Source: Nitrospira sp.
GTDB lineage: Bacteria > UBA10199 > SBBF01
Length of the DNA: 39,300 bases
Direction: 5' to 3'
Assembly: GCA_005240075.1 (NCBI GenBank)
Contig: SBBF01000009.1
Location: 1-39,300, forward strand
Each line of letters begins with the position of its first letter. Within the stretch, counting starts at the first letter, position 1. Position numbers and translations under genes: made by a program. The notes under the pieces were generated by a model. It saw only the letters and a list, made by a program, of their open reading frames with translations, was not told the DNA's origin and did no database searches. This document shows, piece after piece, positions 238 through 30,934 of the stretch.

Positions 238-278
238 TTGACATGTGGTTATTTTACGCTGTAATTTAACCACTATGT
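238..278 (+). promoter_or_regulatory. Near-leaderless promoter with palindromic operator over the start codon
   Basis: TTGACA (238-243) and TGTAAT (260-265) are separated by 16 nt, which would place transcription start near 272, only a few bases before the ATG at 275. An inverted repeat has arms ACATGTGGTTA (241-251) and TAACCACTATGT (267-278), identical apart from one extra base. It covers the end of the -35, the -10 and the start codon. This is what an autoregulatory operator would look like, but that role is inferred. Confidence 0.55.
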
Positions 279-1426
279 ACATCCAAAGAGGTTTAACCAA
301 AATTCTTGAACAGGGCAAAAAAAGTTTTCTTCTCCTTGGCCCCCGACAGACAGGTAAATCAACCCTCATCAGCCAGCTCAAACCTGATCTCACCATCAAT
401 CTGGCCGACGAAACGACCTATCTGGAATTTGCCAGAAATCCTTCTGAACTCAAAGAACGCCTTGCCGGAAAGCCTGTACGAACTGTTTGTATCGACGAGG
501 TCCAACGTCTGCCCAGTCTTCTGAATACCTTACAGGATATTCTGGATCATCAGAAGACGTCTCTTCGGTTTTTTCTGACCGGATCAAGCGCCCGAAAATT
601 GAAAAGGGGAGGGGCCAACCTTCTTCCTGGCAGGATCCACAGCTATCATCTGGGTCCTCTTGCATCATCGGAACTGGATTATTCTCTTAATGTGCTTCAA
701 TCTCTGGCGACCGGCACTCTTCCCGGCATTTATACGGAGGATTCCAGGCAGGAACAGATCAAAACACTTCGCACCTACGCCGCCACTTATTTAAAAGAGG
801 AGATTCAGGCCGAGGCTTTGACAAGAAACCTGGAGGGGTTTTCACGTTTTTTGTTTGTGGCGGCCCAGAGCGCAGGTCATTTTCTGGATCTGGCGAGTCT
901 TGCCTCCGAGGCCCATGTTCCCAGACAGTCTGCCGTTCGTTATTTTGAAATTTTGGAAGATACTTTGGTTGTTCAACGTTGCCTCCCTTTTTCATCCAAT
1001 AGAAAAAAAAGATTGATCAAGCATCCCAAATTTTATTTTTTTGATACGGGGGTGCTCAATGCTCTTCTGGGAAGTTTCGAGGTTTCGGAAGACCGCAAAG
1101 GTCTTCTCTTCGAACATCTGTTTTTTAATCAACTTGTGGCCAGTGCCGCCAGCCAGGACACCGACATCGGGATTTACACCTACAGAACGGAACATGGGGC
1201 CGAGGTTGATTTTATTGTGGAGAACGGCAAGAAAACCTGGGCTATTGAGGTCAAGGCCTCCAAAAATGTCGGTCGGAACGACTTATCAGGGCTTAAAAAC
1301 TTCTCCTTTTTTTTCAAGAAACCCTGCTATTATAGGGTGGCGTATTGGGGAGATGTGGTGAAGGTTATCGACGACGTCACTATCATGCCGTGGCAACAAC
1401 TTTTAAAGGAAATGGAGCTCTTCTAA
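275..1426 (+). CDS. AAA_14 / DUF4143 family ATPase
   Basis: A 383-aa protein of the large AAA_14 plus DUF4143 family. The Walker A is GPRQTGKST at residues 22-30 and the Walker B is VCIDEVQ around residue 75. A GSSAR sensor-like stretch follows. The C-terminal DUF4143 part contains GAEVDFIV...WAIEVKAS, resembling the metal-binding core of PD-(D/E)XK nucleases. Family members are abundant, often mobile or strain-variable, and their cellular role is not settled. I start at ATG 275 rather than an in-frame GTG at 245, because family members begin a few residues before the P-loop helix. No Shine-Dalgarno is visible, in keeping with the near-leaderless promoter. The gene converges on a TA pair. Family assignment is secure; function is not. 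Confidence 0.85.
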   Translation: MYIQRGLTKILEQGKKSFLLLGPRQTGKSTLISQLKPDLTINLADETTYLEFARNPSELKERLAGKPVRTVCIDEVQRLPSLLNTLQDILDHQKTSLRFFLTGSSARKLKRGGANLLPGRIHSYHLGPLASSELDYSLNVLQSLATGTLPGIYTEDSRQEQIKTLRTYAATYLKEEIQAEALTRNLEGFSRFLFVAAQSAGHFLDLASLASEAHVPRQSAVRYFEILEDTLVVQRCLPFSSNRKKRLIKHPKFYFFDTGVLNALLGSFEVSEDRKGLLFEHLFFNQLVASAASQDTDIGIYTYRTEHGAEVDFIVENGKKTWAIEVKASKNVGRNDLSGLKNFSFFFKKPCYYRVAYWGDVVKVIDDVTIMPWQQLLKEMELF

Positions 1427-2412: not shown

Positions 2413-5400
2413 ATGACTCTATTTGGGGTGGACAATCAAAACAGATACTTAGCTCTTTTTCTGTCGGTTTTCCTCAGTGCTCTCTCTTTTACAGCCTGTG
2501 TGGGGGGGGGACAGCAGGAGAACTCAGGGGAAATCCCCTTTATTGACACCCCGGTGGGGGAGGAAGGGGAATATGACCCAACCTCAGGCGAACCGCATGA
2601 TCCTGATCCCGATGGGGCTGGCGAACAGTGCGAAAACCTGGATACCATTTCCATCAGCCCCACCTCCATCAGTTTTGGTTTAAGCGAATTCAATCATCTG
2701 GAATGCCAAACCGTAGCGGTCAATCCCTGTGTCAGTTTTAACGCGGAGATTGATGACTCGTCAGACAGCCAGTTTGTGCTCTACTCCCAAGACGACGCGG
2801 AAGTGACCGGACGACTGACTGACCAGCAGGAAACCCTGCAAGTTTGCTACACACGGACCGAAACCGGTTCCCATACGGGGCGGGTGAACATTGTCATGTC
2901 GTCCGGATCAGCCACCTATGCGTATGGGGTTCCCTTGACCGGCAGTACGGTTGATTCTCTGTTCAATATTACCTCTCCTACAGACGGACAACTTGTTTGG
3001 GAACATGATGGAATCAGCCAGTACGATTCTGCCTCAGATTCATTTGTTCTTTCTGCCGCAGGAACTGTTAATTCGGACCTTCAGTCTATTTTATCGGACA
3101 GCAACGTGACTGTGGAGGTGGATGGAACAGCACAAACGTTGACTTTGGGGGATGATTATTCTTTTTCCACATCCATTGCCATTCCTTCCAGCCCCGATGT
3201 TTACCCGGTTAATTTTTCCATGGAGACCTCTCATGGAACATTAACGACAACTAAAAACGTCATCCGTTTTTATAGGCCGGACGGAAGTCTGGAAATTCGC
3301 GATGCCAGCGGCGATGTAGTCAGCGCTGTGGCGGCGACCGACGCGAAGAATACTGATTCGTCGGTCTTAACGGCCGGCATTGTTATTGACAACCTGGATG
3401 TCTCCGGCCCCCGCGCGGAACATCCGGTGGAAATGACTCTTTCCATTACCAGTCCCGAAGGAAAAATCACCAAATACACCGGAAGCGACTGGGAAGAAAC
3501 AACCGATGAGGTATCCCCCATCAATTTTTACGTTGAAGATTTTGATTTTGGCGGCGAGGAGGACGAAGAAGGGGTGAGTGGCATGTGTCCTTCTTCTTTT
3601 TCGGATCAAACAACCACGTATTGTATTCCTCTCCCCCCCACAGCCAACCTGGGGCGTGGAACCAATGTATTAACCGCCACCCTGTGCAATGAATATACCG
3701 ATTATGAAGCGGGCTGTGTGACAGCCACGACTTCGCTGGTGGTGGACAATGATGTGCCGGTGATTACCGTCAGCACGCCGGTGGAAAATACCTACTATGA
3801 CATTTACGGTCAAAGCGGCGCGATGGTTACGGTTACAGGCACTCTTGAAAATTTTGTGAAGGAGGAAGAAACCACGGCGGAGGATGGAACTATTTCCACC
3901 ACCTGTCTGGCCAAACTCTGGGTGAACACCTCGATCAGTCAGACCGCCATTGATTTGTGCGACTACCTGACGATTATTTCCAGCGAAGACCAAAACTCCA
4001 CCAGTGGCAACAGTGGCAATATCCGCAAAGCTAGTTTTAGCCTCGATCTCAACTTTACCGGCGATGCCAATGGCTACAACAAGCTGACCCTTTACACCAA
4101 TCTGATCTACATCCAGGTGGAAGACAGCAAAAGCCATGTGGCTTACAAAACCCGCAGTTTCCAGATTGGGTCGTTGAATGAGTCGACCATCAAGACCTCC
4201 AGTTCGGGGGCCACCCCAAAACTTTCTCTGACAGGGGATTTAACGTCCGGGCAGTTGGGGGAAATCTCTCAGCTTGATGGAAGCACGATCCGGACTCCCT
4301 TGATGCTGAATGTAACAGAAGCAACGGTTCAAGATCCGAAGATCATCGCGGTTGTTGAAAAAATTCTGAATGACAATGTTAAATTTGCCGATGTTGTCCA
4401 GGGGGGGGTTCTTCCTGGAGATGAAGATGGGGATAATGTTGAAGATCAGGGGGAGAATATCGACTTTGAGGCGGAGTTTGACTATGACGAAGGGGATAAT
4501 TTTTACGATCTGGATTACGAAACTCAGAAAAAATGGATCTGGCAGAATCTTCATGCCAGCATGCCGCAGAAGGTAAGGGCGTTAAGTCGTTACCGTACCC
4601 TTCTGGCCTTGAGGGATGAAGCCGATCCCGGAAATCTCGAAAATGTTTTTTTCAAAGATGAATGCGGTCAAAGCGACCCGAATGATTTTGAAACAGGCTG
4701 GAATGTGGCCTGTGATTCCTGTGGAAACAAGCTTTCAACAGCACTCGTCACTTACAATACTCTTCAGTATATCTACGAGGGTATTTTGGAAGATGAAACG
4801 ATAACCAATCAGCGAGTCTGGCCTACTGCATTAGGTAATTCGGTGGATGCCGATGATACCGTTCAGGGCAAGTGGAAGATAGGTTCGTTAAATCTTAAGA
4901 ATGATGGTTATATCGATGCCGATGTTTGTATTGTGGGCGAAGGGGATGTGGTTGAAGGGTGTGACGATGTAGCAGACAATAATCATCATGAACCTGCATT
5001 TTGGGGGCATGTAGCGGCCATCGGGTTGATTGAAAAAGGGATTACCGGTTTGGAGAATGACCCGGTTCTTCCGCTGATCTGGAATGTTGGCAAAGTGAGG
5101 ATCACTTTCAAGAATGTTCTCCAGATCAAGAAAGAAAAATTATCTGACAGCACCTATACGAACAAGTTTATTATTCATGAAGATAAGATCATTGATGGCT
5201 TAAGCGGTTCTATCCAGTTGGAGCCTTACCTCGAATGCGCCGAATATTACGACGAAAAATTTGGAAAGGAGACCCCCGATCCTGTCGGTTGCATTAAGAC
5301 TGATGAGGGCTATAAAGGTGAAATATACCCTGTTATTATTGATCGCACCGCCCTCCAAGGAGCTGAGGCCTATTATCACATGTCTGAAGAGGGGAATAAC

Positions 5401-7017
5401 CTCTTTCTTTTGGATATTCTTTATTCGGAGCTTTTAAAAACTTTTAAGGGGATGGTTTCCTGCATGGATGATGAGCTGGTGAACCCTTTGATCAATCCGG
5501 CTGTTTTTGAATACCCGGCGTGGGTTTCTGAAGATGTGAAGGTGGATGAATTATCTCTGGCGCTCGATAGCACGGATGATGGGATGAGTGTGACTCTTAA
5601 GGAAGATGCGGAAGATCCCCAATTTTATTTTACCCCTAATCTTACGGAAGCCGATATTGTGATAGAGGATGGAGGCTTAAGCTTAAAACTCCCGATGACT
5701 TTGGGCGCAGGCGACGTTTCCACCCTGCGCCTCTTTTCACTGCTCGGTTCTTCCGGCGCCGACACGCGCGCCAACGGCTATATGTACCGCGATCCCTCCG
5801 CCGAATCGGCCGAGGCGCTGGAATCGCTGGCCAACATTTCCAAAGTAGAGGACGAACCCTATCTGGGACTGTCCCTTGGCCTGGAAGAAGTAGGCAACTC
5901 CGCCCTGCATGTGTTGTTCAGGAAGGGTTTGAAGAGTGTCTTGGAACTGGTTTCTCAGGATCTGGTGGATGATCTGAATATGCAGTCCAACTACACCATT
6001 GGGATTGACAAAGTGATTTTGGGGAATTTTGGCTTATGCGGTCAATTAGCTGGAGGTCTCGCTAGTACAGACCTTGCTGTCCAGACTTTCTTCCCCTATA
6101 TCAGCACCTTTTTCGGGGATCATATAGCTACTCACTGGGATATTACTCTCGATAAAAATTCTCCTCCTACTCTGGCCTTATTGCCCATAGAAGGTGATGA
6201 CAAAGCTGTGATGCTCCAGCTGGGTCTTTCCAATGTTCAAATTGATGTTAAATCGCTCAAAGAACATACCGAGACCGATCCCCCGACCTACGAAATACTC
6301 AATTCCGTAGTCAAATTACGTTTGGATGGACTCATTCGTATCGTCCTTTACTACAATAATGATCCAAGCTCTGAGGATTCAAAAATACTGAAAGTCTATA
6401 TCCTCCCTTTTGATGAGACTCCTTTCTATGTGAGTGTCATCAACCGGGGGTACACCTATGACGATTCAGAAGTGATTGGGCAATTGACTGATCAAATCCT
6501 TGATGCTGCTTTTGATATTGCGGCTAAGTCTTACGAATTAGGGGGCGTGGCTGATGGGAGTATCGAGATTCCCCTCCCTAATTCGGCAGTTGGCTTTGAT
6601 TCAATGGAGGTAGTTAATAATATACGCCAAGAAGCCAATGACGAGTGCACTGAAGGAGAAGAGCCTCAGTATTATTCAGAAACATCCGAAGCCACCAAAG
6701 ATGGGGATGAAAATGATGATGAGGGGGGCAAGGATGGCGAATCCAGCAGTTCTCATCCATCTCTATCCCTGGAAAACATTAAAATAAGTACGCCGCCTAG
6801 TGAGATTTTTCCCCTGGATGGTCCTTGTTTTATTCTCAACGTCAAACCAGACAACGATATTGAGGAAGCGCTGTGTGATGTGGGCATTCAAGATATCCAA
6901 TTTGGAGAGGGGTATCCCGATATTATTTTTGATTCTGATAACGGGTATCTTCATTTTTCAACCAAACTGTTGATGGAAATCTATGACTGGTTGGCGGAGG
7001 AGGTGAGCACAGAATGA
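2413..7017 (+). CDS. Giant acidic lipoprotein with Ig-like domains, unknown function
   Basis: A 1534-aa secreted lipoprotein. The signal peptide runs from residue 1 to a lipobox ending SFTAC, with the lipidated Cys at 29. A Gly/Asp/Pro-rich linker follows, then an Ig-like sandwich (ISISPTSISFG...) resembling ASH or choice-of-anchor-D domains, and further beta-rich segments to about residue 600. Two acidic low-complexity tracts stand out (near nt 4420-4500 and 6690-6740). The rest is beta-rich and has no fold I recognise. Many Asp/Glu residues suggest calcium-dependent folding outside the inner membrane. ATG 2413 gives a compact signal peptide; an in-frame TTG at 2362 would add 17 residues. 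It leads a three-gene operon and overlaps the next gene by 4 nt. Role unknown; surface structure or adhesion is a guess. Confidence 0.8.
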   Translation: MTLFGVDNQNRYLALFLSVFLSALSFTACVGGGQQENSGEIPFIDTPVGEEGEYDPTSGEPHDPDPDGAGEQCENLDTISISPTSISFGLSEFNHLECQTVAVNPCVSFNAEIDDSSDSQFVLYSQDDAEVTGRLTDQQETLQVCYTRTETGSHTGRVNIVMSSGSATYAYGVPLTGSTVDSLFNITSPTDGQLVWEHDGISQYDSASDSFVLSAAGTVNSDLQSILSDSNVTVEVDGTAQTLTLGDDYSFSTSIAIPSSPDVYPVNFSMETSHGTLTTTKNVIRFYRPDGSLEIRDASGDVVSAVAATDAKNTDSSVLTAGIVIDNLDVSGPRAEHPVEMTLSITSPEGKITKYTGSDWEETTDEVSPINFYVEDFDFGGEEDEEGVSGMCPSSFSDQTTTYCIPLPPTANLGRGTNVLTATLCNEYTDYEAGCVTATTSLVVDNDVPVITVSTPVENTYYDIYGQSGAMVTVTGTLENFVKEEETTAEDGTISTTCLAKLWVNTSISQTAIDLCDYLTIISSEDQNSTSGNSGNIRKASFSLDLNFTGDANGYNKLTLYTNLIYIQVEDSKSHVAYKTRSFQIGSLNESTIKTSSSGATPKLSLTGDLTSGQLGEISQLDGSTIRTPLMLNVTEATVQDPKIIAVVEKILNDNVKFADVVQGGVLPGDEDGDNVEDQGENIDFEAEFDYDEGDNFYDLDYETQKKWIWQNLHASMPQKVRALSRYRTLLALRDEADPGNLENVFFKDECGQSDPNDFETGWNVACDSCGNKLSTALVTYNTLQYIYEGILEDETITNQRVWPTALGNSVDADDTVQGKWKIGSLNLKNDGYIDADVCIVGEGDVVEGCDDVADNNHHEPAFWGHVAAIGLIEKGITGLENDPVLPLIWNVGKVRITFKNVLQIKKEKLSDSTYTNKFIIHEDKIIDGLSGSIQLEPYLECAEYYDEKFGKETPDPVGCIKTDEGYKGEIYPVIIDRTALQGAEAYYHMSEEGNNLFLLDILYSELLKTFKGMVSCMDDELVNPLINPAVFEYPAWVSEDVKVDELSLALDSTDDGMSVTLKEDAEDPQFYFTPNLTEADIVIEDGGLSLKLPMTLGAGDVSTLRLFSLLGSSGADTRANGYMYRDPSAESAEALESLANISKVEDEPYLGLSLGLEEVGNSALHVLFRKGLKSVLELVSQDLVDDLNMQSNYTIGIDKVILGNFGLCGQLAGGLASTDLAVQTFFPYISTFFGDHIATHWDITLDKNSPPTLALLPIEGDDKAVMLQLGLSNVQIDVKSLKEHTETDPPTYEILNSVVKLRLDGLIRIVLYYNNDPSSEDSKILKVYILPFDETPFYVSVINRGYTYDDSEVIGQLTDQILDAAFDIAAKSYELGGVADGSIEIPLPNSAVGFDSMEVVNNIRQEANDECTEGEEPQYYSETSEATKDGDENDDEGGKDGESSSSHPSLSLENIKISTPPSEIFPLDGPCFILNVKPDNDIEEALCDVGIQDIQFGEGYPDIIFDSDNGYLHFSTKLLMEIYDWLAEEVSTE

Positions 7018-8348
7018 TAACGCAAAATTTAAAATTAAAAATGCAAAATTATAATTCAAAATTCAAAAAATTTTTTAATTTTGCCTTATTGTTTTTCATT
7101 TTTAATTTTTCATTTTTAATTAATTCCTGCTCTTCCCTCTTTGGCAATGGAAGCGAAGGTGAGGGGGCTTCATCCATTAATGATATTGCAATCTCTAATG
7201 AGATCATCAGCTTTGAATCATCCGGCGGCCAAACAGATTACCATACAGTCTCTTTCAAAAATTTGTCGGATTCTCCTATTACCGTTACAAATATTATTTT
7301 CTACCATAATCTTTGTTCTGCTTTTTCTCTTTACAGTATTACTGACCAGACCGGACAGATGCTTCTGGATGGTAGTGAACCGATCAATTTTACGGTGGGA
7401 GCCGGAGCGACGGTTTACTTGCATCTGGCCTATTGCCCTCCTGAGTGTATTTACAGCGACTACGATACAACTCTGTTCATCTATTATGAGGATAATTCTG
7501 GAAACCAAGTAACCTACGTAACTTTACAGTCTTCTCCGGCTGGCGGCGTTTGCCGCGATGTTTTGGTTTGTGAAGAAGATCCTTTTGCCTTTGAATATAA
7601 ACCTGAAGTTTTTGGCCAGGGACTGCCTGAAACAGGAGATTATTATTTTCGCATCAATAAAATGCATGCCTATCTGTATCCTGTTTCAGCTCCTGAAAAC
7701 ATCAAAGTGATCGGCACCGATATCAATATTGATCCTGACATGTTTCAGTCTCCTTATTTAAAAGTAAGTCTTGATGATGTTCAGGGGAATGGAACTCTCT
7801 ATCAGATTGAGGAATGTTCCCAATTTATCATTCCGGCACCCGAGGATGATCCCTACTTTGCGGGAGCCGACACTCAATTAACAACAAAGGATAATACCTT
7901 TTTTGTCCTGGATGAAGATGGGAATTTGGAAGTTGATGAATTGGTGATAACCCTTCTTACGGAAAATATAGACAGCTCTGAGCTGGGTTCTCCATCTCCA
8001 TTGCCGGATGATAATGGGACATTTCAGATTTCTCTTAAAGTGACTTTAACAACGGATGCAACGCCTGAAGATCAGTATTTAGGAAGCCTGCTGGATAGTA
8101 GTGACTATTATGATGGGATTATGAATCTGATCGATTCCGATGATGATGGACAATACCAGCTTCAGGGAACTGCTCTGAGCGGTGATGATGCCACTATTAC
8201 TCTTGTGGCCCGAGGGGAGTTTACCAACGAGGATGACGACTTTATCGGTGAGGAGACCGTCGGAACAATTCTTTTGGAGGATGAAGCCTATATTTATGTC
8301 CAGATTGAGGCGACACTGGTGACACGTGTAGGATCTCTTGAGGACTAA
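7014..8348 (+). CDS. Acidic lipoprotein with ASH-like domain, unknown function
   Basis: A 444-aa lipoprotein that starts in an ATGA overlap with the preceding gene, so the two are probably translationally coupled. The signal peptide is very Phe/Asn/Lys-rich, ends in LINSC and lipidates Cys 39. An in-frame ATG at 7041 would give a more usual 30-residue signal (lipidated Cys 30). The signal-peptide DNA is made almost wholly of an AT-rich inverted repeat. Residues about 55-165 form an Ig-like sandwich (IISFESSGGQTDYHTVSFKN) like ASH or choice-of-anchor-D domains, with a few cysteines. The remainder is Asp-rich beta sequence (LDEDGNLEVDE, DSDDDGQYQL) with calcium-binding-like loops. It is the middle gene of the three-lipoprotein operon. 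Function unknown. Confidence 0.8.
   Translation: MITQNLKLKMQNYNSKFKKFFNFALLFFIFNFSFLINSCSSLFGNGSEGEGASSINDIAISNEIISFESSGGQTDYHTVSFKNLSDSPITVTNIIFYHNLCSAFSLYSITDQTGQMLLDGSEPINFTVGAGATVYLHLAYCPPECIYSDYDTTLFIYYEDNSGNQVTYVTLQSSPAGGVCRDVLVCEEDPFAFEYKPEVFGQGLPETGDYYFRINKMHAYLYPVSAPENIKVIGTDINIDPDMFQSPYLKVSLDDVQGNGTLYQIEECSQFIIPAPEDDPYFAGADTQLTTKDNTFFVLDEDGNLEVDELVITLLTENIDSSELGSPSPLPDDNGTFQISLKVTLTTDATPEDQYLGSLLDSSDYYDGIMNLIDSDDDGQYQLQGTALSGDDATITLVARGEFTNEDDDFIGEETVGTILLEDEAYIYVQIEATLVTRVGSLED
7021..7127. repeat. AT-rich inverted repeat inside a signal-peptide coding region
   Basis: The left half (7024-7070) carries AAAATTAAAAATGCAAAATT-type units. The right half (7081-7125) carries their complement as two TTTTTCATTTTTAATT-like units. 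The segment 7027-7045 matches the reverse complement of 53-72 near the left edge. The repeat lies within coding sequence and supplies most of the lipoprotein signal peptide. Confidence 0.5.
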
Positions 8349-8354
8349 AAATTT

Positions 8355-11300
8355 ATGTTAAGGATTTTTAAAAAATTATTTTTTCTCATCCCTGTTTTAG
8401 CGGGGGTTATCTTGATCCATTGCAGTGGTGGAGGGGATAGTGATTCGCAGGATGAAGTTGTCCAGCCGACAAACCCCAGTATCAGTCATTCCGATGATTT
8501 ATCATCGTCTGCAGTCAACACCTTCCTGGATAATGGAATTCAATTGACTATCGATCCGACCTACGCCGATTTGGGGGAGACAACCCAGGATGAGCCCCTC
8601 AAGACTTCCTTTACGATTACCAATGGCACCTCAGATTCTCAACTGATTACTTTAAGCCTTTTTGGTTCATCCGGAGTTTTCAGGATGATGAAGGACAATG
8701 GAGAATTCTTTGCTTATCTTCCTGATGTCAGCTTGGCGGCTGGTGAGTCCCAAACCTTGACTCTTGTTTATGATGCAAGCCTCATGGGGACGCATACCGG
8801 CTATCTGGAAATTACCGCTTACAATGTTTCAGGCACTATCTATTTTCCCTTTAGGGGAAGTGTGACCGGTCCGGCTGATTTCAGGATTATTTCGTCAGGG
8901 TACATGTGCACGAATGACAATGCCCCTCAGTTGACCAGCCTTGATTTTATGAAAGTAGCCTCAGATCGTTCAAAAGTCCTCTCTTTCAAAATTTGTAATA
9001 CTGGGGGGGAACGACTCAAAATCAACACAATTGAATTTGGTAAAGAGACTGACGGTGTATCTTCCATGGCCATGGATGTAGACCCTTTTCAAGATTTTGA
9101 ATGGGAAGTAACCGATGCTCTGAATACGGCTTATTTTGAGTATTACAACCCCCCCACGGATTCATCTTTTATTGAGCCTGAATATATTGATTATACGGGG
9201 GCTCTTCCGGATGCCACGGCCGCCTTTGAAGTAGAAGAGCATACCTATGAAATTAACCCGGATGGTTTGGTCATTGACTCAGGTTCTTATGCTGTTTTTG
9301 ATGTAACTTTTGCTCCCGAGTTGGATGCCGAAGCGCCCGAAGGACAACTGTATAATCCAGTTTCGTATGCGGCTGACATGAAAATCAGTACTTCCTTGGG
9401 AGAATTAGAAATAGATCTTGTTGGAGCCACAGGAGGAAAGGAACCGATACTTGAAGTGAGTTACATTAAGGAAGACGATTCTGCGACAACGTATGAAGTG
9501 GATCTTGATTCTCAAGGAGCGGCTATCCATTTTGGCACGGCTTCAATTTTTGATGATTGGATTACGGAGGATACGAAGGAAGTTACGTTGACCCTGGCCA
9601 ACATGGGAAGCGGTTTAAAAAGTCTTCAAATCTGGGCCGATTCTATTGACTTGGGTTATTTTACTTTTGTTCGTGAATCGCCTGAAAGAAGTTTTCCGAT
9701 TGAACTTGACCCTGGCGTGGCTACAACCATCAAGCTGGTGTATGCTCCCACTCCGGAAGGGAATGTGGCTCAGGATACCTATGATATGGGGCAGATGGTT
9801 CTTCGGCATACGGCGGGGAATGGGCCGGTTAATCCGGTCACATTCGTGGGAGAAGAAGAATCGGGAGAAATTATCGACATTCAACAGGCAGGAGGAGTTA
9901 AACTCAAAAAGAATGATGCGGGTGCGGATGGAAGCAATCCGTATGATAGCGCGCCCAAACGCTTTTGCATTTCTCAGGGGGACGATGCCAGCTGGTCCAC
10001 AATCAGTTTTGAAATAGCTAATCATTCGAGCCTTGCGGACAACATACTCACAACAGGTTGGTCAATCGCCCTTGATCCGCAGGAAGGAACGGGTCAATCC
10101 TCAGGCATTGTTACTCCTGTGGGTGACAACCCTGTTCAAACTGGACCAGGTGAAACAGGGACTTTTGGTTTTATAGTTACTCCCGCTACCGATGAGGAAG
10201 GAGACATTTTGTCCACAATCAATGGAACATTAATGATCACTAATAGTTTTGCTCTCGAAGAAACCTTAGGCGTCTCACTCGATTATGACTATGAGGTCAA
10301 CTTTACTATGACCGTTGCCTCCACAGCCGATGGTTGCAGTGGAGGAAGCGGCCAGCCCCTCACTGGCACAAGAAAACTAGTCATTGATGCCATTACCATG
10401 AACATGCCTTCGGGGGCCATTACTGAACCGGCGACCAATCGTTCTCCTTTCAAATTTCATTTACCCATCGATCTTGATTCCACCAACGGTTATGCTCGAA
10501 TCCATGGTCTCGACTATAGCACAGAGGCTGGGGTGTCTCCGGTGACCCAGATTCGTTCTTATGCTCACCAATTAACAGGGGCCTATTTGGGCTGTCGTCC
10601 CTATCCTACGAATCCTTACCGGCTTGAATTTGAAGAAGGAAGTTGGGATGGTCCCTTCCAGTGTCCCTATGAAGAAGACCCTAATTTTGGAGTCAAAGAC
10701 GGCACGGTAACCTGCATGGATAGTAATGGAGCAGAAGACTACGTTGTTGATGAAACAACAACCTATAAAGTATTTTATCATGAATTTATTCAATTCAATG
10801 AGGATTGTACGGTCAAGTTTAAGGGAAAATTTGCCTATTTTTACCTGAAACCGGGGGAAACAGTAAAAGATGCTGTTCAACGGATTATCGATGAATACGG
10901 CGTATCGGCCAAGGATTATGAATATGAAACAGGGAGAGGCGCCTTTCAATTCGATTCTTATATTACCTTTAATGAACCTTATACGTGTAACGGAGTCACT
11001 CAATCGGGAACCGTTACTGACCCCGATGCTATCAAATTATGTTGGATGCAATTTCATGACGATCAGGTGAGCCGCTTATCTGGTTTTATTGACGAATGTA
11101 ATTATTTCAACTTCTCTATTGATGAAGGGTGTATTCCTCGCGATGCGCCGGGGAGTATCAACTATACGGAAGAGGAATTGTGCGATGATGGAAGTATCAC
11201 CTACGATGACCCCGATACTTGGGTCGGCTTTGGAGAATATGAACCGCGGGAGGATGACGAAACAAAATGGGATTTAACCCTTCGCAATATTCATATTCAA

Positions 11301-12107
11301 GCTTTTGTACTCCATGCCAATGAGTTTTTTAAAAATAACAGTAAAATGCTTTTTTCAGACCTTTATGTGACTTTAACCACTCGAGCAATTGGAGAAAATT
11401 CAGACGATCCACAGGATCTTATTGCGGTCAATAGTCGTAGCGATTTTTCCACTGATAGAATTTATATTCCGAAAAGTAGTGACATGGCGCAAGACTACTG
11501 GATCCAGCATGGCAAGAATTCCAAGTTCTTTACGGGTGAGGAGCAGTATGTTGATTGTGATCCTTCGCAACCGCTCACATCGTGCCGAGGCAATTTTGTG
11601 TATAACACAGGTGGAAATGAGATTCTCCACTCTGGGGAGCCGATTGATTTTGTGACTGATGGAGAAAACCGTACCATCCTTGTTGGAGTAGGTTCTTTTC
11701 ATGGGAAAGATCAAATGGCCCCCTTCTTTGCCCAAGAGCTTAAAGATGGTCGTGGATCAGCCCTTTATTTTACCTTTCATGGTTGTTTTGAAGCCGATGA
11801 CGCAGATACTATTACAGAGGGGGCTGGCTGTTTTGCCCCCCAACTCGATCCAGGGACTGATGACGATGGTGCCAGTATTTCCAGCCTGTTTCCGGATTAT
11901 GTCGAGCACACTATATTGGCTGATACCGATATTGATTCTACTGACGTCGAAAGTAGCAAGGCTTACATTAATTATCATATCTTTGATTTTGATCGCGATC
12001 GTGCCACCGATTATTATAGTGGTGGGAGTCTTGGCCATCCGAATGGGAACTATTATGTCGATGAAGATTATTATAACGACAATTCTTGCGGTGGCTATGG
12101 GCACTAA
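8355..12107 (+). CDS. Large lipoprotein with choice-of-anchor-D-like domains
   Basis: A 1250-aa lipoprotein that starts 6 nt after the previous stop. The signal peptide is MLRIFKKLFF followed by a hydrophobic core and the lipobox LIHC, with Cys 23 lipidated. Repeated beta-sandwich units follow, each with a DLG or FGT start and a GESQTLTLVYDAS-like or STVDFTFAP-like middle. These are typical of choice-of-anchor-D/ASH domains (first about 65-175, another about 375-500, and a third, weaker one to about 660). The C-terminal half has many cysteines (for example CNYFNFSIDEGC) and a Tyr/Asp-rich tail ending CGGYGH. It is the last gene of the operon, with a strong terminator 59 nt downstream. Family function unknown; probably displayed at the cell envelope together with the two upstream products. 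Confidence 0.82.
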   Translation: MLRIFKKLFFLIPVLAGVILIHCSGGGDSDSQDEVVQPTNPSISHSDDLSSSAVNTFLDNGIQLTIDPTYADLGETTQDEPLKTSFTITNGTSDSQLITLSLFGSSGVFRMMKDNGEFFAYLPDVSLAAGESQTLTLVYDASLMGTHTGYLEITAYNVSGTIYFPFRGSVTGPADFRIISSGYMCTNDNAPQLTSLDFMKVASDRSKVLSFKICNTGGERLKINTIEFGKETDGVSSMAMDVDPFQDFEWEVTDALNTAYFEYYNPPTDSSFIEPEYIDYTGALPDATAAFEVEEHTYEINPDGLVIDSGSYAVFDVTFAPELDAEAPEGQLYNPVSYAADMKISTSLGELEIDLVGATGGKEPILEVSYIKEDDSATTYEVDLDSQGAAIHFGTASIFDDWITEDTKEVTLTLANMGSGLKSLQIWADSIDLGYFTFVRESPERSFPIELDPGVATTIKLVYAPTPEGNVAQDTYDMGQMVLRHTAGNGPVNPVTFVGEEESGEIIDIQQAGGVKLKKNDAGADGSNPYDSAPKRFCISQGDDASWSTISFEIANHSSLADNILTTGWSIALDPQEGTGQSSGIVTPVGDNPVQTGPGETGTFGFIVTPATDEEGDILSTINGTLMITNSFALEETLGVSLDYDYEVNFTMTVASTADGCSGGSGQPLTGTRKLVIDAITMNMPSGAITEPATNRSPFKFHLPIDLDSTNGYARIHGLDYSTEAGVSPVTQIRSYAHQLTGAYLGCRPYPTNPYRLEFEEGSWDGPFQCPYEEDPNFGVKDGTVTCMDSNGAEDYVVDETTTYKVFYHEFIQFNEDCTVKFKGKFAYFYLKPGETVKDAVQRIIDEYGVSAKDYEYETGRGAFQFDSYITFNEPYTCNGVTQSGTVTDPDAIKLCWMQFHDDQVSRLSGFIDECNYFNFSIDEGCIPRDAPGSINYTEEELCDDGSITYDDPDTWVGFGEYEPREDDETKWDLTLRNIHIQAFVLHANEFFKNNSKMLFSDLYVTLTTRAIGENSDDPQDLIAVNSRSDFSTDRIYIPKSSDMAQDYWIQHGKNSKFFTGEEQYVDCDPSQPLTSCRGNFVYNTGGNEILHSGEPIDFVTDGENRTILVGVGSFHGKDQMAPFFAQELKDGRGSALYFTFHGCFEADDADTITEGAGCFAPQLDPGTDDDGASISSLFPDYVEHTILADTDIDSTDVESSKAYINYHIFDFDRDRATDYYSGGSLGHPNGNYYVDEDYYNDNSCGGYGH

Positions 12108-12165: not shown

Positions 12166-12198
12166 CCCCCGCACGAAAGTGCGGGGGGGTGTTTTTTT
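12166..12198 (+). terminator. Intrinsic terminator of the lipoprotein operon
   Basis: A perfect 9-bp stem CCCCCGCAC/GTGCGGGGG with a GAAA tetraloop is followed after GGTG by seven T residues. It ends transcription of the three lipoprotein genes. There is no T-run on the other side, so it is one-directional. Confidence 0.93.
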
Positions 12199-12401
12199 CA
12201 AGCCGCCTGTTTTTTGAAAACGGCCTTTTCCAGGCGGTCTATCCGACCAACGAGGCCTTCGGATTCTCCAAAAAGAGCCTTCTTAAGAATTTGATTCAAT
12301 ACCGTCTGGTACTTTCCCCCTCCCTCGGTAGCCAGTTGACGGATCATCGTTATCACGTCCTTGTCCAAATCTGCATGACAAAAAAAGATTGGTGCTGGCA
12401 A
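12198..12401 (-). pseudogene. Orphan RHH antitoxin remnant (BrnA/CopG-like)
   Basis: The 67 codons contain a recognisable antitoxin tail: LDKDVITMIRQLA, then KYQTVLNQILKKAL, like the ribbon-helix-helix end of BrnA/CopG antitoxins. The part before it (PAPIFFCHA) does not look like the usual strand. Only a TTG is available as start, an in-frame TGA lies two codons upstream, and no ribosome-binding site is visible. No toxin gene adjoins it. I read it as the 3' remnant of an antitoxin gene. A short functional antitoxin remains possible. Confidence 0.5.
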
Positions 12402-24044: not shown

Positions 24045-24050
24045 ATTTAA
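24012..24050. repeat. 39-bp direct repeat, copy 1 (typA side)
   Basis: Identical over 39 bp to 27446-27484, with unrelated sequence on both flanks. It encodes the N-terminal residues of typA ([12 protein letters not shown], read on the minus strand), which continue here into the rest of the pseudogene. The TAA stop of the ATPase gene at 24047-25459 lies in it. Confidence 0.9.
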
Positions 24051-25459
24051 TTAAAAAAATCATCCAATCCCACAACATCCAGTTCCGGGTGATCCACAAG
24101 ATTTGGGGAAAGCCTGGCATTGGTCACAAGCAATTTTCTTAATGTGTGTTTTTTAGGATTGGGATAACGCTGACACTTTGTTTCCAACTCTTTCATGAGT
24201 TCATAACCAATCTGTGTCTCAGACCACTTGCATTCTCCAATCAGGGTTGTCCGATCACGGCATTCAATAACCAGATCTATTTGCACCCCCGGACCGTGAC
24301 GGACGCTGGATTTATGCCAGTACATTCCCGATCGAACAAACACATCTTCCAAATTCAATTTTTTTAAAATGACTTGAAGGTTTTTATGGCAAAAGACCTC
24401 AAAAGCAAGCCCCAAGTAGGAATGCCACTGTGGTTTGACCAATGTATCAAAAATAAATTTTTTGGAATTGTGTTCAATAGCCTGTCTGTTGGGATGAATG
24501 AATAGAAAATAGAATCTCACGTACTCATCAGTAATTTTATACAGGACAGTTTTAGAAGTTTCTGAAAGTGTGATGGGCCGGTGTTCGTGGATGATGCCGA
24601 TCTCCTTGAGACGATCCACATTGAACATGAGTGAACCTGTGGGTGTTTTGAGGGCACGGGATAAATCCGTCAGCGTCATGGAACGCCTGGCCAAGTGCTG
24701 CAGGATTTTAAAGTATTTTTTTGGCTGTTTGAGTTGACTGGACAGGATATATTTTAACTCATCGACAAAATAAGCATTTTCAACAAAAGACAAATGATTG
24801 ATGTTTTGTTCAAAAGATTGATGGCGATGGTAAAGTTTAAGATAAGCGGGAACAGCTCCAAAACACATAAGATATCGGATGGCATCCCCATTTTTTTTAA
24901 TGCCAAGAAGCTGACGGGCTTCTGAAGAAGTCAGGGCCATTAATTCCAGCGTTTGTGTTCTTCTGCCAAAAAGGGGACTTTTCTCTGCCAACACTTCAGA
25001 AATCATGAAACTGGTGGATGAGCCGCACAGAATCAAATGAACTGTATTGTGATATTGCCAATGATGATCCCACACATGTTGAATGACTGACTGCAACGAA
25101 GAACCGGGTCGGCACATCCACTGAAACTCATCCAGTACGATCACGATTTTGCCCTTCGGCAATTTGCTGACAACGACATCAAAAACTTCACGCCAAGCGG
25201 TCAAGGATAGCAGGGCAATCAAAGGATCACCCGCAAATGCAGAAAAATCCTTCAAGAAGTTCTTGATTTGTTCTTCCTGGGTTCCGTCCAGGGCGCTGTA
25301 GTAGAAAGATGTTTTGTCCGAGCAATAATGCTTTAACAATTCTGTTTTGCCAATGCGGCGCCGGCCGTAAAGGACGCTGAAATGAGAGCGCTTTTCCTGA
25401 TAACATTTATTCAGAAGAAACTGTTCTTTATCACGACCGATGAAATCCAGATTTGACAT
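24047..25459 (-). CDS. Archaeal-type AAA ATPase with DUF234 C-terminus
   Basis: A 470-aa protein. The ATPase_2 domain begins with FIGRDKE and has Walker [13 protein letters not shown] (residues about 31-42) and Walker [24 protein letters not shown] sensor region follows. A winged-helix-like part ([28 protein letters not shown]) is followed by the DUF234 domain with [19 protein letters not shown], a PD-(D/E)XK-like D..E.K pattern. Family roles are poorly known. Its start codon lies inside the first of four ATTTTACTTAAGTAT-type motifs, and its TAA stop lies in the 39-bp repeat, next to the typA remnant. It has no Shine-Dalgarno. Confidence 0.85.
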
Positions 25460-25557
25460 TTTACTTAAGTATCATTAAATAAAGTATAGTCAAGTAAAAT
25501 GTTAAGTTTTTAATATTTTACTTAAGTATGTATTAATAATCCATCTTTAAGTAAAAT
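25458..25557. promoter_or_regulatory. Cluster of four alternating operator-like motifs
   Basis: ATTTTACTTAAGTAT occurs exactly at 25458-25472 and 25515-25529. Shorter inverted copies lie at 25491-25500 (CAAGTAAAAT) and 25546-25557 (TTTAAGTAAAAT). The centres are about 29 bp apart, near three helical turns. The first overlaps the ATPase start codon. This suggests cooperative binding of a regulator. Confidence 0.55.
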
Positions 25558-25590
25558 GATGCAAGATCCAAAAAAGCCTCCAAAAAATCA

Positions 25591-26715
25591 TTATTGATGG
25601 CTCAACCAGTGTCTCAAGAGGGGATCTACAACATCAAACCCTTTTTCTCTTTTTTCAATTAAATCGAGTTGAATCAATTTTTTTAAAGCCCCCTGGATTC
25701 CGCCTGTGGAGCCCAGATGGTGGGCTTTAATGTAGTTAAACGAAAAAAGAGAAGGGGAAGGATCCAAAGCCAGCGCTTTAAGGAGGACAATCTGTTGGGG
25801 GGCCAGTCCCTGAAGGATCGCCTCAAAGACCGGCTTTTCCGCATTGATCAAAAGATCAAAGGCGGGCTTTAAATCGGATTCATTCACCTTTTTTTCAGCC
25901 GTCTCGAAAACAAAAAAGGATAACTTTTGGGCATAATAGGGATGTTGATGAACTCTGCTTGATATTTTTTCGGCAACAGGCAAAGGGCATTCTTTTTTCC
26001 CCCTCTGGAATTGATCCACCAAAAAAGGAGCCAGCTCCTCATGCGGAAGGGCTTTGAGTTCGTAATTGAGGGCGCTTTGAAAGAAAGGGCGTTTTCGTTC
26101 ATTGAACATGTCTAACAGAAGTCGGCGCCTTGACCCCACAAAAAAATAAGAGATCGGTTGTTTTTGGATGTGGGAACGCATGATTCCTTCCAGGGAGAGA
26201 GATTCCTTGAGCAATACGATTTCCTGAAATTCATCAAAGACAATCTGTATTTTTATCTTTTTATCCCTGGCGAACTCATCCAGGGACCCTAAGACCTCCT
26301 CGATGGTTTCCAACCCTTTTTGTTTTGTTGTTGCCAGTTCCACAGTCAACGAAAGTTTCCCCTCATCGTCCGGTTTAAGAACAGGCCGGAACGATTTCAA
26401 AAGCCTGATTGATTTTTTAAACCAGTTTTCTTCCTTGCGGGTCATTTCAAAAAAAGCCCTTGCCAGCCGGAACGCAGCCTCCTCGGCCGAAGTGATGCCA
26501 AAAAAGTCGGTAAACAAGGTCAGGTAACCTTGAGTCCCCAATTCTTTTTGAACCCGTTTTACGAGAGAGGTTTTTCCATAACGCCGTGGAGAAAAGAGCA
26601 CCACATTGGCGTTGGCCCGGGCATAACCCAACAAATCCCTTTGTTCCTGTTGACGGTTACAGAAGGGGGAATCAGGATCTATCTCTTTGAAAGTAAAGGG
26701 ATTTATTAATACCAT
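25591..26715 (-). CDS. AAA ATPase (archaeal ATPase_2-like), no nuclease domain
   Basis: A 374-aa protein: NPFTFKEIDPDSPFCNRQQE, then Walker A FSPRRYGKTSLV, Walker B IQIVFDEFQEI and sensor FVGSRRRLL, and a C-terminal winged-helix region (LLKALALDPSP...GGIQGALKKLIQLDLIEKR) ending VVDPLLRHWLS. It lacks a DUF234 domain, which distinguishes it from its neighbour. Such ATPases are common in archaea and deltaproteobacterial genomes and often variable between strains. Transcription likely starts a few nt before the ATG from the promoter at 26725-26753. A palindrome covers the start. The cellular role is unknown. Confidence 0.82.
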   Translation of the reverse strand: MVLINPFTFKEIDPDSPFCNRQQEQRDLLGYARANANVVLFSPRRYGKTSLVKRVQKELGTQGYLTLFTDFFGITSAEEAAFRLARAFFEMTRKEENWFKKSIRLLKSFRPVLKPDDEGKLSLTVELATTKQKGLETIEEVLGSLDEFARDKKIKIQIVFDEFQEIVLLKESLSLEGIMRSHIQKQPISYFFVGSRRRLLLDMFNERKRPFFQSALNYELKALPHEELAPFLVDQFQRGKKECPLPVAEKISSRVHQHPYYAQKLSFFVFETAEKKVNESDLKPAFDLLINAEKPVFEAILQGLAPQQIVLLKALALDPSPSLFSFNYIKAHHLGSTGGIQGALKKLIQLDLIEKREKGFDVVDPLLRHWLSHQ

Positions 26716-26753
26716 ATCATAAGTACTATGATATAGTATCTATCTTATGTCAA
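26714..26753 (-). promoter_or_regulatory. Near-leaderless promoter and palindrome at ATPase start
   Basis: On the minus strand TTGACA (26753-26748), 17 nt, then CATAGT (26730-26725) form a promoter whose start point falls only a few nt before ATG 26715. ATATCATA (26714-26721) and TATGATAT (26727-26734) form a perfect 8-bp inverted repeat overlapping the -10 and the start codon. This matches the layout at 241-278 and 21726-21749. Confidence 0.5.
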
Positions 26754-26905
26754 GGGAAGACGGGAAATTCAAAGAATCGGCAGGAAAAAGAGTTATCATT
26801 TTTTTAAGACAGAAAAACCAATTACTGACCGATCACGAAATTTGTTGGATACCCCGTTGACAAGGTTCATCATAAATGATACACCTAAATTCAGAAGGTG
26901 AAACG

Positions 26906-27142
26906 ATGCCTACAACAAATCCCCGCTTAAATGTTGTTCTCGAAAAGCCCATGTTGCGAATGTTGTTGAAGTCTGCAAAAAGATCAGGTGTTTCCCTTTC
27001 CTTGAAGGCGCGAGACTTGATCCGGCAGGCCCTGGAACTGGAGGAAGATTTTTATTGGACTCAAAAAGCGGATCAGAGGGCCAAAACATTTAATCCTCGA
27101 AACGTCTTAAGCCACAATGAAGTTTGGAAAAAAGGTTCTTAA
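26906..27142 (+). CDS. RelB/RHH-type antitoxin
   Basis: A 78-aa protein, MPTTNPRLNVVLEKPMLRML, followed by KRSGVSLSLKARDLIRQALEL, which is the strand-helix-helix pattern of RHH antitoxins. An acidic/aromatic tail (EEDFYWTQKADQR...HNEVWKKGS) follows, as used to wrap a RelE toxin. ATG 26906 has AAGGTGA just upstream; an in-frame ATG at 26876 is less well served. The toxin starts 8 nt after its stop. Together they form a conventional antitoxin-first module inside the repeat-bounded segment. Confidence 0.8.
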   Translation: MPTTNPRLNVVLEKPMLRMLLKSAKRSGVSLSLKARDLIRQALELEEDFYWTQKADQRAKTFNPRNVLSHNEVWKKGS

Positions 27143-27150
27143 AGTTGGTC

Positions 27151-27435
27151 ATGCGCTTCAAAATTTCTTATCATCCGGACGTTGCAAGCCTTGATCTGCC
27201 TCTCATTAACAGGAACATGCAACAAAGAATCAAAAAGGCGATCGAAACACGGCTGATGAACGATCCTGTCCACTTTGGCGCCCCCCTTCGCCATACCCTG
27301 ATGGGATATCGTAAACTTCGTGTGGGAGATTACCGTGTTATTTATGAAATTATGGAGACTGAAATCTGCATTTATACCATTGGTCACCGAAAAGAAGTGT
27401 ATCAATCAAGCTTGAGAGAATGGCGCCTCGCATGA
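27151..27435 (+). CDS. RelE-family toxin
   Basis: A 94-aa RelE/ParE-fold toxin: RFKISYHPDVASLDLPLI, helices to about residue 35, DPVHFGAPLRHTLMGYRKLRVGDYRVIYEI and IYTIGHRKEVYQ. The G-x-x-KLRVGDYRVIY core and IGHRKEVY end are diagnostic. It is predicted to cleave mRNA at the ribosome, with its antitoxin encoded immediately upstream. ATG 27151 is preferred over an earlier in-frame start at 27124 that overlaps the antitoxin. It ends just before the second repeat copy. Confidence 0.87.
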   Translation: MRFKISYHPDVASLDLPLINRNMQQRIKKAIETRLMNDPVHFGAPLRHTLMGYRKLRVGDYRVIYEIMETEICIYTIGHRKEVYQSSLREWRLA

Positions 27436-27445
27436 GAACCATGAC

Positions 27446-27484
27446 ATTCCTGATTTTGTCCTGAAGGCTTTGACGTCTATTTAA
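27446..27484. repeat. 39-bp direct repeat, copy 2 (isolated typA 5' fragment)
   Basis: The exact second copy of the typA 5' fragment, with no further typA sequence beside it. The stop codon of the next ATPase gene (27481) lies in it, as the stop of the 24047-25459 ATPase lies in copy 1. Confidence 0.9.
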
Positions 27485-28647
27485 ACAAACGCCGTTAAAA
27501 ATTTATTTGCAGGAATAAGGTGGATGGCATCCTTTACAAATTCCCTCTCCGTTTTTAGTACAACCTGGAATAAAAAAGGGATTTTAAGTCGGCTTCCAAA
27601 GTATTTGAGTGATGGAGAAAGATCATGACCTGAGAGCTTGGCTTCTACCGCAAACCATGGCTTGTTGTTGACGGTTACCAAAAAATCAACCTCCCGTTTA
27701 TCGAGGTCGCGCAAATACCAAAGTTCTATTTTGTAGCCCTCCGTATCCTCCAGGTAATGGCAAAATTTTAACAAGTGGGAGGCCATCATGTTCTCATAGC
27801 GATAACCGACATCTTCAATCAGGGTCCAATCCCAAAGATAGATTTTTGGCTCTTTTTTTAAAGCCCTTACCATGTTTCCTGAGTAGGGGTTGAGGCGGAA
27901 TACATAATAAAGTTTTTCAAAAATAGTCATCCAATGGGTGAGGGCCTTGTGGCTCACTTCAAGGTCTTCACGAAGTGAATTAAGTGACAGAGGGCTCCCT
28001 ACTCTATGAGGCAGGAGATCCGAGAGAAGTTGAATGCTGGACAGGTCGCGAATATTTTCAAGGTCACGCAGATCCTCCCTGAAAAATCGCTCGATGTGTT
28101 CCTTTTGCCAGCGGCGATGTTTTTTAGCATTTTGGGCCAGCAAAGGTTCCGGGAACCCGCTATAGTTCAACAAGGTTTCCAGATTGTTATGATTTTTACT
28201 CAAAAAAGAGAGGGGATCAAAAGGAGACAGTGGATTGATCATATGATTGATTTCATTTTGGCTGAAAGGATGAAGTCGGTAATGATGGTAACGCCCTTGA
28301 AGGGAATCCCCCCCTCGTCGATAGACATCCAAACGGGCACTTCCAGTCACCATAAATTTTAACCGATTTTTATGAATATCATATTCTCCTTTGATCCATT
28401 GTTTCCACTTGCTGTATTTATGAAGTTCATCCAGTACAATCATTCTGGCTTCCGGCGGCCATTGGGACTTGAGCAGAGCCTGACGGTCATGGCGATTATC
28501 CCAAAGGTAATAGGCCCCTGGTCCATTTTGATTGATCATGTTTTGGGCAAGGGTTGTTTTACCCACCTGCCTGGGACCCGCTAAAAAAACCATTTTTTCT
28601 TGAAGGTCTTCTTGAATGGACTCTTCTAAATAACGAGCCAAATTCAT
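27481..28647 (-). CDS. AAA_14 / DUF4143 family ATPase
   Basis: A 388-aa relative of the ATPase at 275-1426. The Walker A is LAGPRQVGKTTLA, the Walker B is MIVLDELHKY, and VTGSARLDVYRRGGDSLQGRYHHYRLHP is the usual conserved stretch. The DUF4143 C-terminus has EVDFLVTVNNKPWFAVEAKLS, again a PD-(D/E)XK-like pattern. ATG 28647 (MNLARYLEES) is the family-like start; the frame is open to a TTG at 28731 overlapping radA. Its TAA stop lies in the 39-bp repeat. Transcription from radA may continue into it, since it lies 80 nt downstream on the same strand. Confidence 0.87.
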   Translation of the reverse strand: MNLARYLEESIQEDLQEKMVFLAGPRQVGKTTLAQNMINQNGPGAYYLWDNRHDRQALLKSQWPPEARMIVLDELHKYSKWKQWIKGEYDIHKNRLKFMVTGSARLDVYRRGGDSLQGRYHHYRLHPFSQNEINHMINPLSPFDPLSFLSKNHNNLETLLNYSGFPEPLLAQNAKKHRRWQKEHIERFFREDLRDLENIRDLSSIQLLSDLLPHRVGSPLSLNSLREDLEVSHKALTHWMTIFEKLYYVFRLNPYSGNMVRALKKEPKIYLWDWTLIEDVGYRYENMMASHLLKFCHYLEDTEGYKIELWYLRDLDKREVDFLVTVNNKPWFAVEAKLSGHDLSPSLKYFGSRLKIPFLFQVVLKTEREFVKDAIHLIPANKFLTAFV

Positions 28648-28727
28648 ATACGATAAATTGTGCCTTAAGGTAAAAAAAATTACAACTTTTTTTTCCTTTG
28701 GGTTAAATTTATTATAAGCCCCGGAGG

Positions 28728-30083
28728 TCAAAAAAGAACTTCCAACACTTGAGAGACATTTTTGACGGCAATCAATTCAAGGGGGAGAGAGGCGAGTTGT
28801 TTTTTAAGGGAGGGGACGAGGCATCGTTTAAAGCCCATTTTGGCCGCTTCTTTAACCCGCACATCCAGCCCCTGAACCGGTCGGATTTCACCCGACAACC
28901 CCACCTCCCCCACAATCAGCGTGTCGGGGCGGACCGGCTTGTTTTTAAAACTGGAAACGAGCGAGGCGAGGATCGCCAAATCAACGGCCGGTTCCACCAC
29001 TTTCAATCCACCCGCCGCGTTGACATAAACATCCTGGGCATACAAATTAAGCCCCACAATTTTTTCCAAGACCGCAATCAATAGTGCGACTCTTCCACTA
29101 TCCACTCCCAGTGTTGTTCGCCGAGGATTGGCCAGGCTCGACTGCGAAACCAATGCCTGGATTTCGATCAGAAAGGGACGCATGCCCTCCAAGGAAGCGG
29201 TAACAACCGAACCGGCGGACCGTTCGGGATGTTCGGATAAAAAAAGGGAGGATGGGTTTTGAACTTCCTGCAATCCACTCTGCGTCATTTCAAAGACCCC
29301 AATTTCATTGGTGGAACCGTAGCGGTTTTTAATCGTCCGTAAAATCCGGTAATGCTGACCGGAGTCCCCTTCAAAATAAAGGACACAATCAACCATATGT
29401 TCCAAAACCCGTGGGCCGGCGAGCGCTCCATCCTTAGTGACATGCCCAATCAGAATAGTTGAAACGCCGACTGTTTTGGAAAGATACAAAAGTTTTCCGG
29501 CCGATTCACGAACCTGGGATACAGAACCGGGGGCTGACTCCAGGTTGGACAAGTAAACGGTCTGAATGGAATCAACCACCACCACCTGCGGTTTTATTTT
29601 TTTGATGTGATCGATGATTCGCTCAATCGAATTTTCGGCAACCACCAAAAGATCGGAAGAAATGTCGAGCCGATCGGCTCTCATTTTAATCTGCTCTTTC
29701 GATTCCTCGCCGGTGGCATAGAGAACTTTGATCCCCTTCTGGCTTAAACGATCGAGCACCTGCAAAATCAGGGTTGACTTGCCGATGCCGGGATCTCCGC
29801 CGATCAACACCAGAGAACCGGGAACAACGCCCCCCCCCAGCACCCGATCGAGTTCATTGATCCCGCAGGAAAAACGGGGCTTGTCGGTCAATTCGATTTT
29901 GTTTAAGGAAACGGCTGTTTCCGTTGTGAGAGAAAAAAAATCCCCGGCGCCGGACAGTGTGGCATTCTGGAAAGTCTCTTCCGCAAAAGTGTTCCACTGG
30001 TTGCAGTCGGGGCATTTGCCCAGCCACTTGGGAGATTGGGACCCGCACGATTGACAGGAATAGATTGTTTTGAGTTTAGGCAT
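28728..30083 (-). CDS. radA: DNA repair protein RadA/Sms
   Basis: A 451-aa RadA, a RecA-like helicase that helps branch migration in recombination repair. A C4 zinc finger uses C10, C13, C24 and C27 (YSCQSCG...GKCPDCNQW). The Walker A is GGDPGIGKST at 95-104. The RadA-specific KNRFG motif is here KNRYG (IKNRYGSTNEIGVFEM). The C-terminus is the Lon-like domain (DVYVNAAGGLKVVEPAVDLAI). Length and order match the family. It is followed downstream by the ATPase with the typA repeat and preceded by the BrnT/BrnA-type pair. Confidence 0.97.
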   Translation of the reverse strand: MPKLKTIYSCQSCGSQSPKWLGKCPDCNQWNTFAEETFQNATLSGAGDFFSLTTETAVSLNKIELTDKPRFSCGINELDRVLGGGVVPGSLVLIGGDPGIGKSTLILQVLDRLSQKGIKVLYATGEESKEQIKMRADRLDISSDLLVVAENSIERIIDHIKKIKPQVVVVDSIQTVYLSNLESAPGSVSQVRESAGKLLYLSKTVGVSTILIGHVTKDGALAGPRVLEHMVDCVLYFEGDSGQHYRILRTIKNRYGSTNEIGVFEMTQSGLQEVQNPSSLFLSEHPERSAGSVVTASLEGMRPFLIEIQALVSQSSLANPRRTTLGVDSGRVALLIAVLEKIVGLNLYAQDVYVNAAGGLKVVEPAVDLAILASLVSSFKNKPVRPDTLIVGEVGLSGEIRPVQGLDVRVKEAAKMGFKRCLVPSLKKQLASLPLELIAVKNVSQVLEVLF

Positions 30084-30690: not shown

Positions 30691-30934
30691 TCAACTATTT
30701 CGTAAGAGGTGGCTCCTTGGGACTTACTCTGGTTGAGACGAAAATGTCAACCTGCTGACTCGACTCCTCAATCGTGGGTGGAGCCCCCCCTTTTTGAGGG
30801 GTCTGTTTTTCAATCCATTCCGCCAAATAAAAATTATATAATAATATCAATAAGTTAAAAATAATAAATTTATAGTTCTTGCTCTCTTTTTGGTATGGAT
30901 CTTGATAGAGTAGAGAGGGAGGGTGGATTTTATC
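30691..30934. other. Intergenic region with hairpin
   Basis: There is no gene here. CCCC (30787-30790) and GGGG (30798-30801) make a short stem followed by a T-run at 30806-30811, resembling a weak terminator on the plus strand with no gene before it. The rest is AT-rich; GGAGGGTGG before 30935 serves the next gene. Confidence 0.35.

Follow-up and report, generated by a model that had tools for sequence, protein, structure and literature searches.

A lipoprotein operon and a class-wide gene pair linking a predicted TULIP-like protein to an ASH lipoprotein in UBA10199

Operon organization and lipid anchors

The locus described here raises the question of whether three neighboring lipoprotein genes form a conserved unit and, if so, what such a unit would do. 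It lies within 39,300 nucleotides of the UBA10199 contig SBBF01000009.1 (hereafter the window), and its genes, A, B and C, are arranged head to tail. Gene A (2413-7017, + strand) encodes a 1534-residue lipoprotein with an ASH-like domain, an Ig-like region and a predicted TULIP-like C-terminal part; it is counted from the ATG at 2413, and the same frame is already open at a TTG at 2362. Gene B (7014-8348, +) encodes a short ASH lipoprotein of 444 residues, and gene C (8355-12107, +) a long ASH lipoprotein of 1250 residues. A and B overlap by 4 nt, and B and C are separated by 6 nt. An intrinsic terminator is located 3' of C (12166-12199, +). Its stem of 9 bp (12166-12187) is perfect, encloses a GAAA loop and is followed by a T-run; the fold z-score is -2.5, and this is the strongest among the terminator-like sites listed.

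Eight genomes of the window's order were sampled. Homologues of A and C were found in all eight (C as a fragment in G005) and homologues of B in seven, with identities of 30-46% within the order. In seven of the eight genomes, A, B and C are adjacent, in the same order and on one strand; in the eighth, G005, the locus is divided by contig ends. Because the same trio recurs in the same order in seven of the eight genomes, the linkage of A, B and C is not due to chance. The initial annotation had proposed an operon of three lipoproteins, and the reading frames, protein sizes, overlap, gap, lipobox cysteines and terminator all bear this out. The comparison of gene order that it suggested as a check agrees, as homologues occurring singly or scattered were not seen within the order. 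The reading frame is broken in A of G001 and in B of G003, either through assembly errors or genuinely. For relatives of C, a contig search with the single protein found none, and an alignment-based search found four loci.

The genes that flank the trio vary between genomes while the trio itself stays. A DUF4143 ATPase is present upstream in four genomes, a block with rplS/trmD-type genes flanks the trio in three, and other genes are found elsewhere; these names come in part from reading the sequences. The DUF4143 AAA ATPase of the window (245-1426, +) is 91% identical to its counterpart in G001 (L019:6935-8113), which is possibly the result of recent transfer or of strong constraint; between the same two genomes the identity of the trio is far lower (A 42-50%, B 32-34%, C 42-46%). 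Between the ATPase gene and A, the window encodes a HepT-like ribonuclease and a polymerase-beta-type nucleotidyltransferase (1458-2283, -), probably a toxin-antitoxin pair of the HepT/MntA type, which is missing at the same place in G001, G002 and G005. The view upstream of A is bounded in the window by the start of the contig at position 1. That the operon has a fourth gene, 5' of A, was considered and is not claimed, as homologous ORFs were found only in G001 and G004. These belong to a fast-evolving gene 5' of A (L019:3554-6115 in G001 and L023:18330-19898 in G004, E 1e-15); G003, G006 and G007 have ORFs in a similar place without clear homology to it.

All three proteins carry a signal peptide and a conserved lipobox-type cysteine, Cys29 in A, Cys39 in B and Cys23 in C, and this cysteine is invariant in the homologue alignments of A, B and C alike. 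In A, the signal peptide ends in the lipobox FTAC with the putatively lipidated Cys29 (2413-2499, +), which is invariant in eight homologues. C has the lipobox LIHC, with an unusual residue at position -1; the cysteine of this lipobox is still invariant and is followed by a glycine-rich stretch. The three proteins are acidic, with 16-17% aspartate plus glutamate and 4-6% lysine plus arginine. To judge from these features, A, B and C would be exported and anchored through N-terminal lipids. In E. coli, a residue other than aspartate at position +2 leads to sorting to the outer membrane, a rule that may not hold in this host. Since none of A, B and C has an aspartate at +2, the anchoring membrane is probably the outer membrane. 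Lipid anchors are thus predicted by the sequences of the three proteins, but the sequences do not imply that the proteins are exposed at the surface or physically assembled.

ASH-like N-terminal domains

The initial annotation had assigned an ASH-like domain to the N-terminal part of each protein. In C, the domain (residues 64-170; 8544-8864, +) is firmly identified by Pfam Cep192_D4, with further matches to DUF1573 and to NCBIfam choice_anch_D. The Cep192_D4 match, over residues 76-159, scores 36.0 bits against a cutoff of 35.5 (E 8.5e-9), the DUF1573 match has an E value of 2e-5, and the choice_anch_D match has an E value of 8e-7, yet lies under that family's cutoff. All seven C homologues match Cep192_D4 at E values up to 0.1, and a search of PDB sequences with C gave a weak match to CEP192 and otherwise chance-level matches.

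In B, the domain (residues 58-172; 7185-7529, +) is supported by predicted structure. The AlphaFold2 model of B has a mean pLDDT of 76, with values mostly between 70 and 90 in the beta sandwich of the N-terminal domain. Compared with the PDB, this domain matches CEP192 SPD-2 best (E 8e-7), and also the PapD-like domain of HYDIN (TMt 0.75) and MSP, so that its predicted fold is a beta sandwich of the PapD-like/ASH type. No family scored above cutoff for B in the curated profiles; one B homologue matched Cep192_D4 with an E value of 0.014.

In A, the domain (residues 73-190; 2629-2982, +) is only probable, and is suggested by profile-profile matches of 78-91% to the N-terminal domain of C (E 1e-5 to 1e-6). 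Pfam gave no match to ASH for this region, no profile match was obtained between A and B, and PDB sequence searches with A and B returned chance-level matches alone. The shared domain therefore stands for C by Pfam and for B by its model, and is reduced to a probable one for A.

The A/D and C/C' gene pair across the class

Two protein families of other orders are related to the trio: D, an exported protein of 1200-1400 residues, and C', a long lipoprotein that is ASH-like in parts. In hhalign comparisons, whose values are single-pair, computed without secondary structure and uncalibrated, A matched D (21 sequences) at 99.3% with an E value of 1.8e-20 over 867 columns, colinear from around residue 256 up to the C-terminus of A (3178-7014, +). 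The result was weak with three D sequences (P 0.011) and decisive only with 13-21, about 870 colinear columns being aligned already with 13. On the same scale, C matches C' over residues 287-745 (9213-10589, +; 96.4%, E 1.1e-9), with a second match at 94% (E 1.5e-7), and the C-terminal beta domain of B (residues 193-441; 7590-8336, +) is recognizable at two places in C' (86.5% and 80.4%). Control pairings gave nothing comparable (C-D 0.5%, B-D 1.7%, and A-C' 30% over 37 columns), and the ASH-like domain of A was not found in D by hhalign. The parts of the three proteins beyond the ASH-like domains, initially taken for unique acidic beta regions, are not simply that: the remainder of A belongs to a class-wide family, and B and C are related to C' outside ASH.

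A profile search with A and D across 385 genomes, largely metagenome assemblies, gave matches in 32 of the 46 genomes that belong to the class and in none of the 339 other genomes. Genomes with A/D have about one copy each. In 27 of the 32, the neighbor of A/D, in tandem or divergent orientation, is a long ASH lipoprotein (C or C'), and this holds over many families. In four of the five exceptions (G005, G032, G036 and G042) contig ends lie next to A/D, and G027 is the sole genome that has no partner despite sequence on both sides. Because of this adjacency, and because four of the five exceptions fall at contig edges, the unit conserved across the class is the pair A/D with C/C' and not the ASH trio; the association of these genes is firm.

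The pair members are separated by B in the window's order and by one or two small ORFs in G013 and G038. B-type lipoproteins, sought with a B profile that included distant members, were found in 28 of the class's 46 genomes, generally as a single gene. Outside the order their genes are mostly unlinked to the other two, with a B-type gene located beside or near C' and D in G013, G015 and G028. As a short ASH lipoprotein, B is class-wide; in the window's order it has become part of the operon, and in three other families it is located close to the pair.

In several other families (loci L151, L175 and L178), D is also flanked by a lipoprotein of 845-920 residues, and those scanned carry a VWA domain; ORFs are found in a similar place at L173, L174, L179 and L181. 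The VWA-domain lipoprotein is a possible further partner.

Predicted fold of A and possible function

The motifs of A and D by themselves suggested a BPI-like (TULIP) pattern. The AlphaFold2 model, which covers residues 600-1534 of A, is weak overall (mean pLDDT 49, pTM 0.40) and contains two candidate TULIP modules with pLDDT of about 60-80, at residues 696-1019 (4498-5469, +) and 1239-1389 (6127-6579, +). In both, long beta strands lead into a long helix; in the second, two strands of 23-24 residues precede a helix of 19 residues. In a Foldseek comparison with the PDB, the best 28 matches of the model all belong to the TULIP superfamily (best E 5e-3, probability 1.00), the table giving no assignment of a match to the first or the second module. 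They include BSP30b, SPLUNC1/BPIFA1, the SMP domain of TMEM24, OrfX1-OrfX3 and juvenile-hormone-binding protein. These matches make a TULIP-like fold the likely prediction for the C-terminal part of A. Neither A nor D has a sequence match to any TULIP family in Pfam, PDB sequences or NCBIfam, and the PDB search with A and D together returned chance-level matches alone. Because no sequence method confirms TULIP, A is not assigned to any described TULIP family.

An internal repeat between the two halves of A was sought with hhalign, and none was found. A 500-residue paralogue in G005 (L027:782-2284) contains only the part corresponding to A residues ~640-1035, which suggests that this part may be an independent module.

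Few bacterial TULIP families have been described, and how these cooperate with partners is mostly unsettled (PMC6791001); they comprise P47, OrfX2, YceB/DUF1439, DUF4403, DUF2140 and DUF2993 (PMC6791001). A shares the predicted fold with these proteins, an N-terminal lipid anchor with YceB, and probably the presence of two modules in one chain with DUF4403 and P47. It differs from them in having no sequence match, in its length of 1534 residues, in the Ig-like region and ASH-like domain that precede the TULIP-like part, in its link to a long ASH lipoprotein of its own, and in its restriction to one class in the sample. Structurally, the A model comes closest to eukaryotic lipid carriers of the BPI/PLUNC (BPIFA1, BSP30b) and SMP groups. 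The likeness is in predicted fold only, with 10-13% identity, and A, in contrast, is bacterial, lipid-anchored and composed of several domains. With ASH, choice-of-anchor D and DUF1573 proteins, C shares a domain that exceeds the Pfam cutoff and B the predicted fold of its N-terminal domain; however, C and B each add extensive regions that belong to their own families and fall below the NCBIfam choice_anch_D cutoff. A literature search found no paper on UBA10199 lipoproteins, on bacterial ASH/choice-of-anchor D lipoproteins or on the A/D and C/C' pair. As the initial annotation supposed, no described system of this kind was found in Pfam, the PDB or the literature. TULIP-like proteins and ASH lipoproteins are each already known, and it is their pairing that is undescribed as far as this search reached.

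ASH and Ig domains typically serve in interactions or as spacers. TULIP domains in other proteins bind lipids (PMC5507252, PMC6791001). The reading preferred here, to which about even chances are given, is an envelope module with the TULIP-like A/D and the long ASH lipoprotein C/C' as its core and B as a third member, in which A would handle lipid. Against this reading stand the poor model of A, with a best Foldseek E value of only 5e-3, the negative sequence searches for TULIP families with A and D, and the mostly unlinked B-type genes outside the order. We infer a complex, its location, its ligand and the direction of transfer as follows. The ASH and Ig parts of the trio would form a stalk and a protein-protein interface, and C and B would dock A and hold it in place at the outer membrane. 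The TULIP modules of A would take up a lipid or another hydrophobic molecule, and A would pass this ligand to or from the membrane.

The lipid anchors, acidic composition and Ig and ASH domains of the trio would also suit a structural or adhesive surface complex, in which the ASH, Ig and beta domains form a stalk or coat contacting surfaces, matrix or cells and no lipid is carried. Its fast divergence, with 30-46% identity within the order, and the VWA-domain lipoproteins that adjoin the pair in other families point the same way. Such a complex is nevertheless rather unlikely, as it leaves unexplained both why the A model matches TULIP folds only and why A/D, at one gene per genome, stays together with its partner throughout the class. 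Some TULIP-like proteins may carry no lipid, and the fold of A could serve protein-protein assembly with C and B instead. Among the matches of the A model, OrfX1-OrfX3 are proteins with TULIP-like domains in tandem and assemble into a protein complex, and a large partner always travels with A; the best matches of A are, however, of the lipid-binding BPIF, SMP and JHBP types, and a purely assembling role is considered improbable. It is very improbable that these are ordinary divergent lipoproteins without a common task, with a linkage left over from history and a TULIP match produced by a poor model; the A model is indeed weak and ASH is the sole named family found, but adjacency holds in 27 of 32 genomes of many families, in tandem or divergently, the homology stands beside clean comparisons of unrelated pairs, and the TULIP matches are uniform.

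The lipid-handling envelope module may, more tentatively, be a lineage-specific system: a giant TULIP protein would move lipids across or along the outer membrane together with an ASH-repeat lipoprotein dedicated to it. If true, this would add a further family to the bacterial TULIPs and, as a lipid-handling module of the envelope, would be of a new kind. About one TULIP-like gene per genome, a near-invariant partner and absence from the 339 outside genomes sampled point to a lineage-defining envelope function, and A/D with C/C' offers a testable gene pair for a little-studied lineage that is known almost solely from metagenomes.

Two further regions of the window were noted. Three AAA ATPases, of the ATPase_2/DUF234, ATPase_2 and AAA_14/DUF4143 types, are encoded close together at 24047-28731 (-). 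An ORF of 1301 residues without a Pfam or NCBIfam match (30923-34828, +) lies just 5' of a mraZ/mraW/penicillin-binding-protein cluster.
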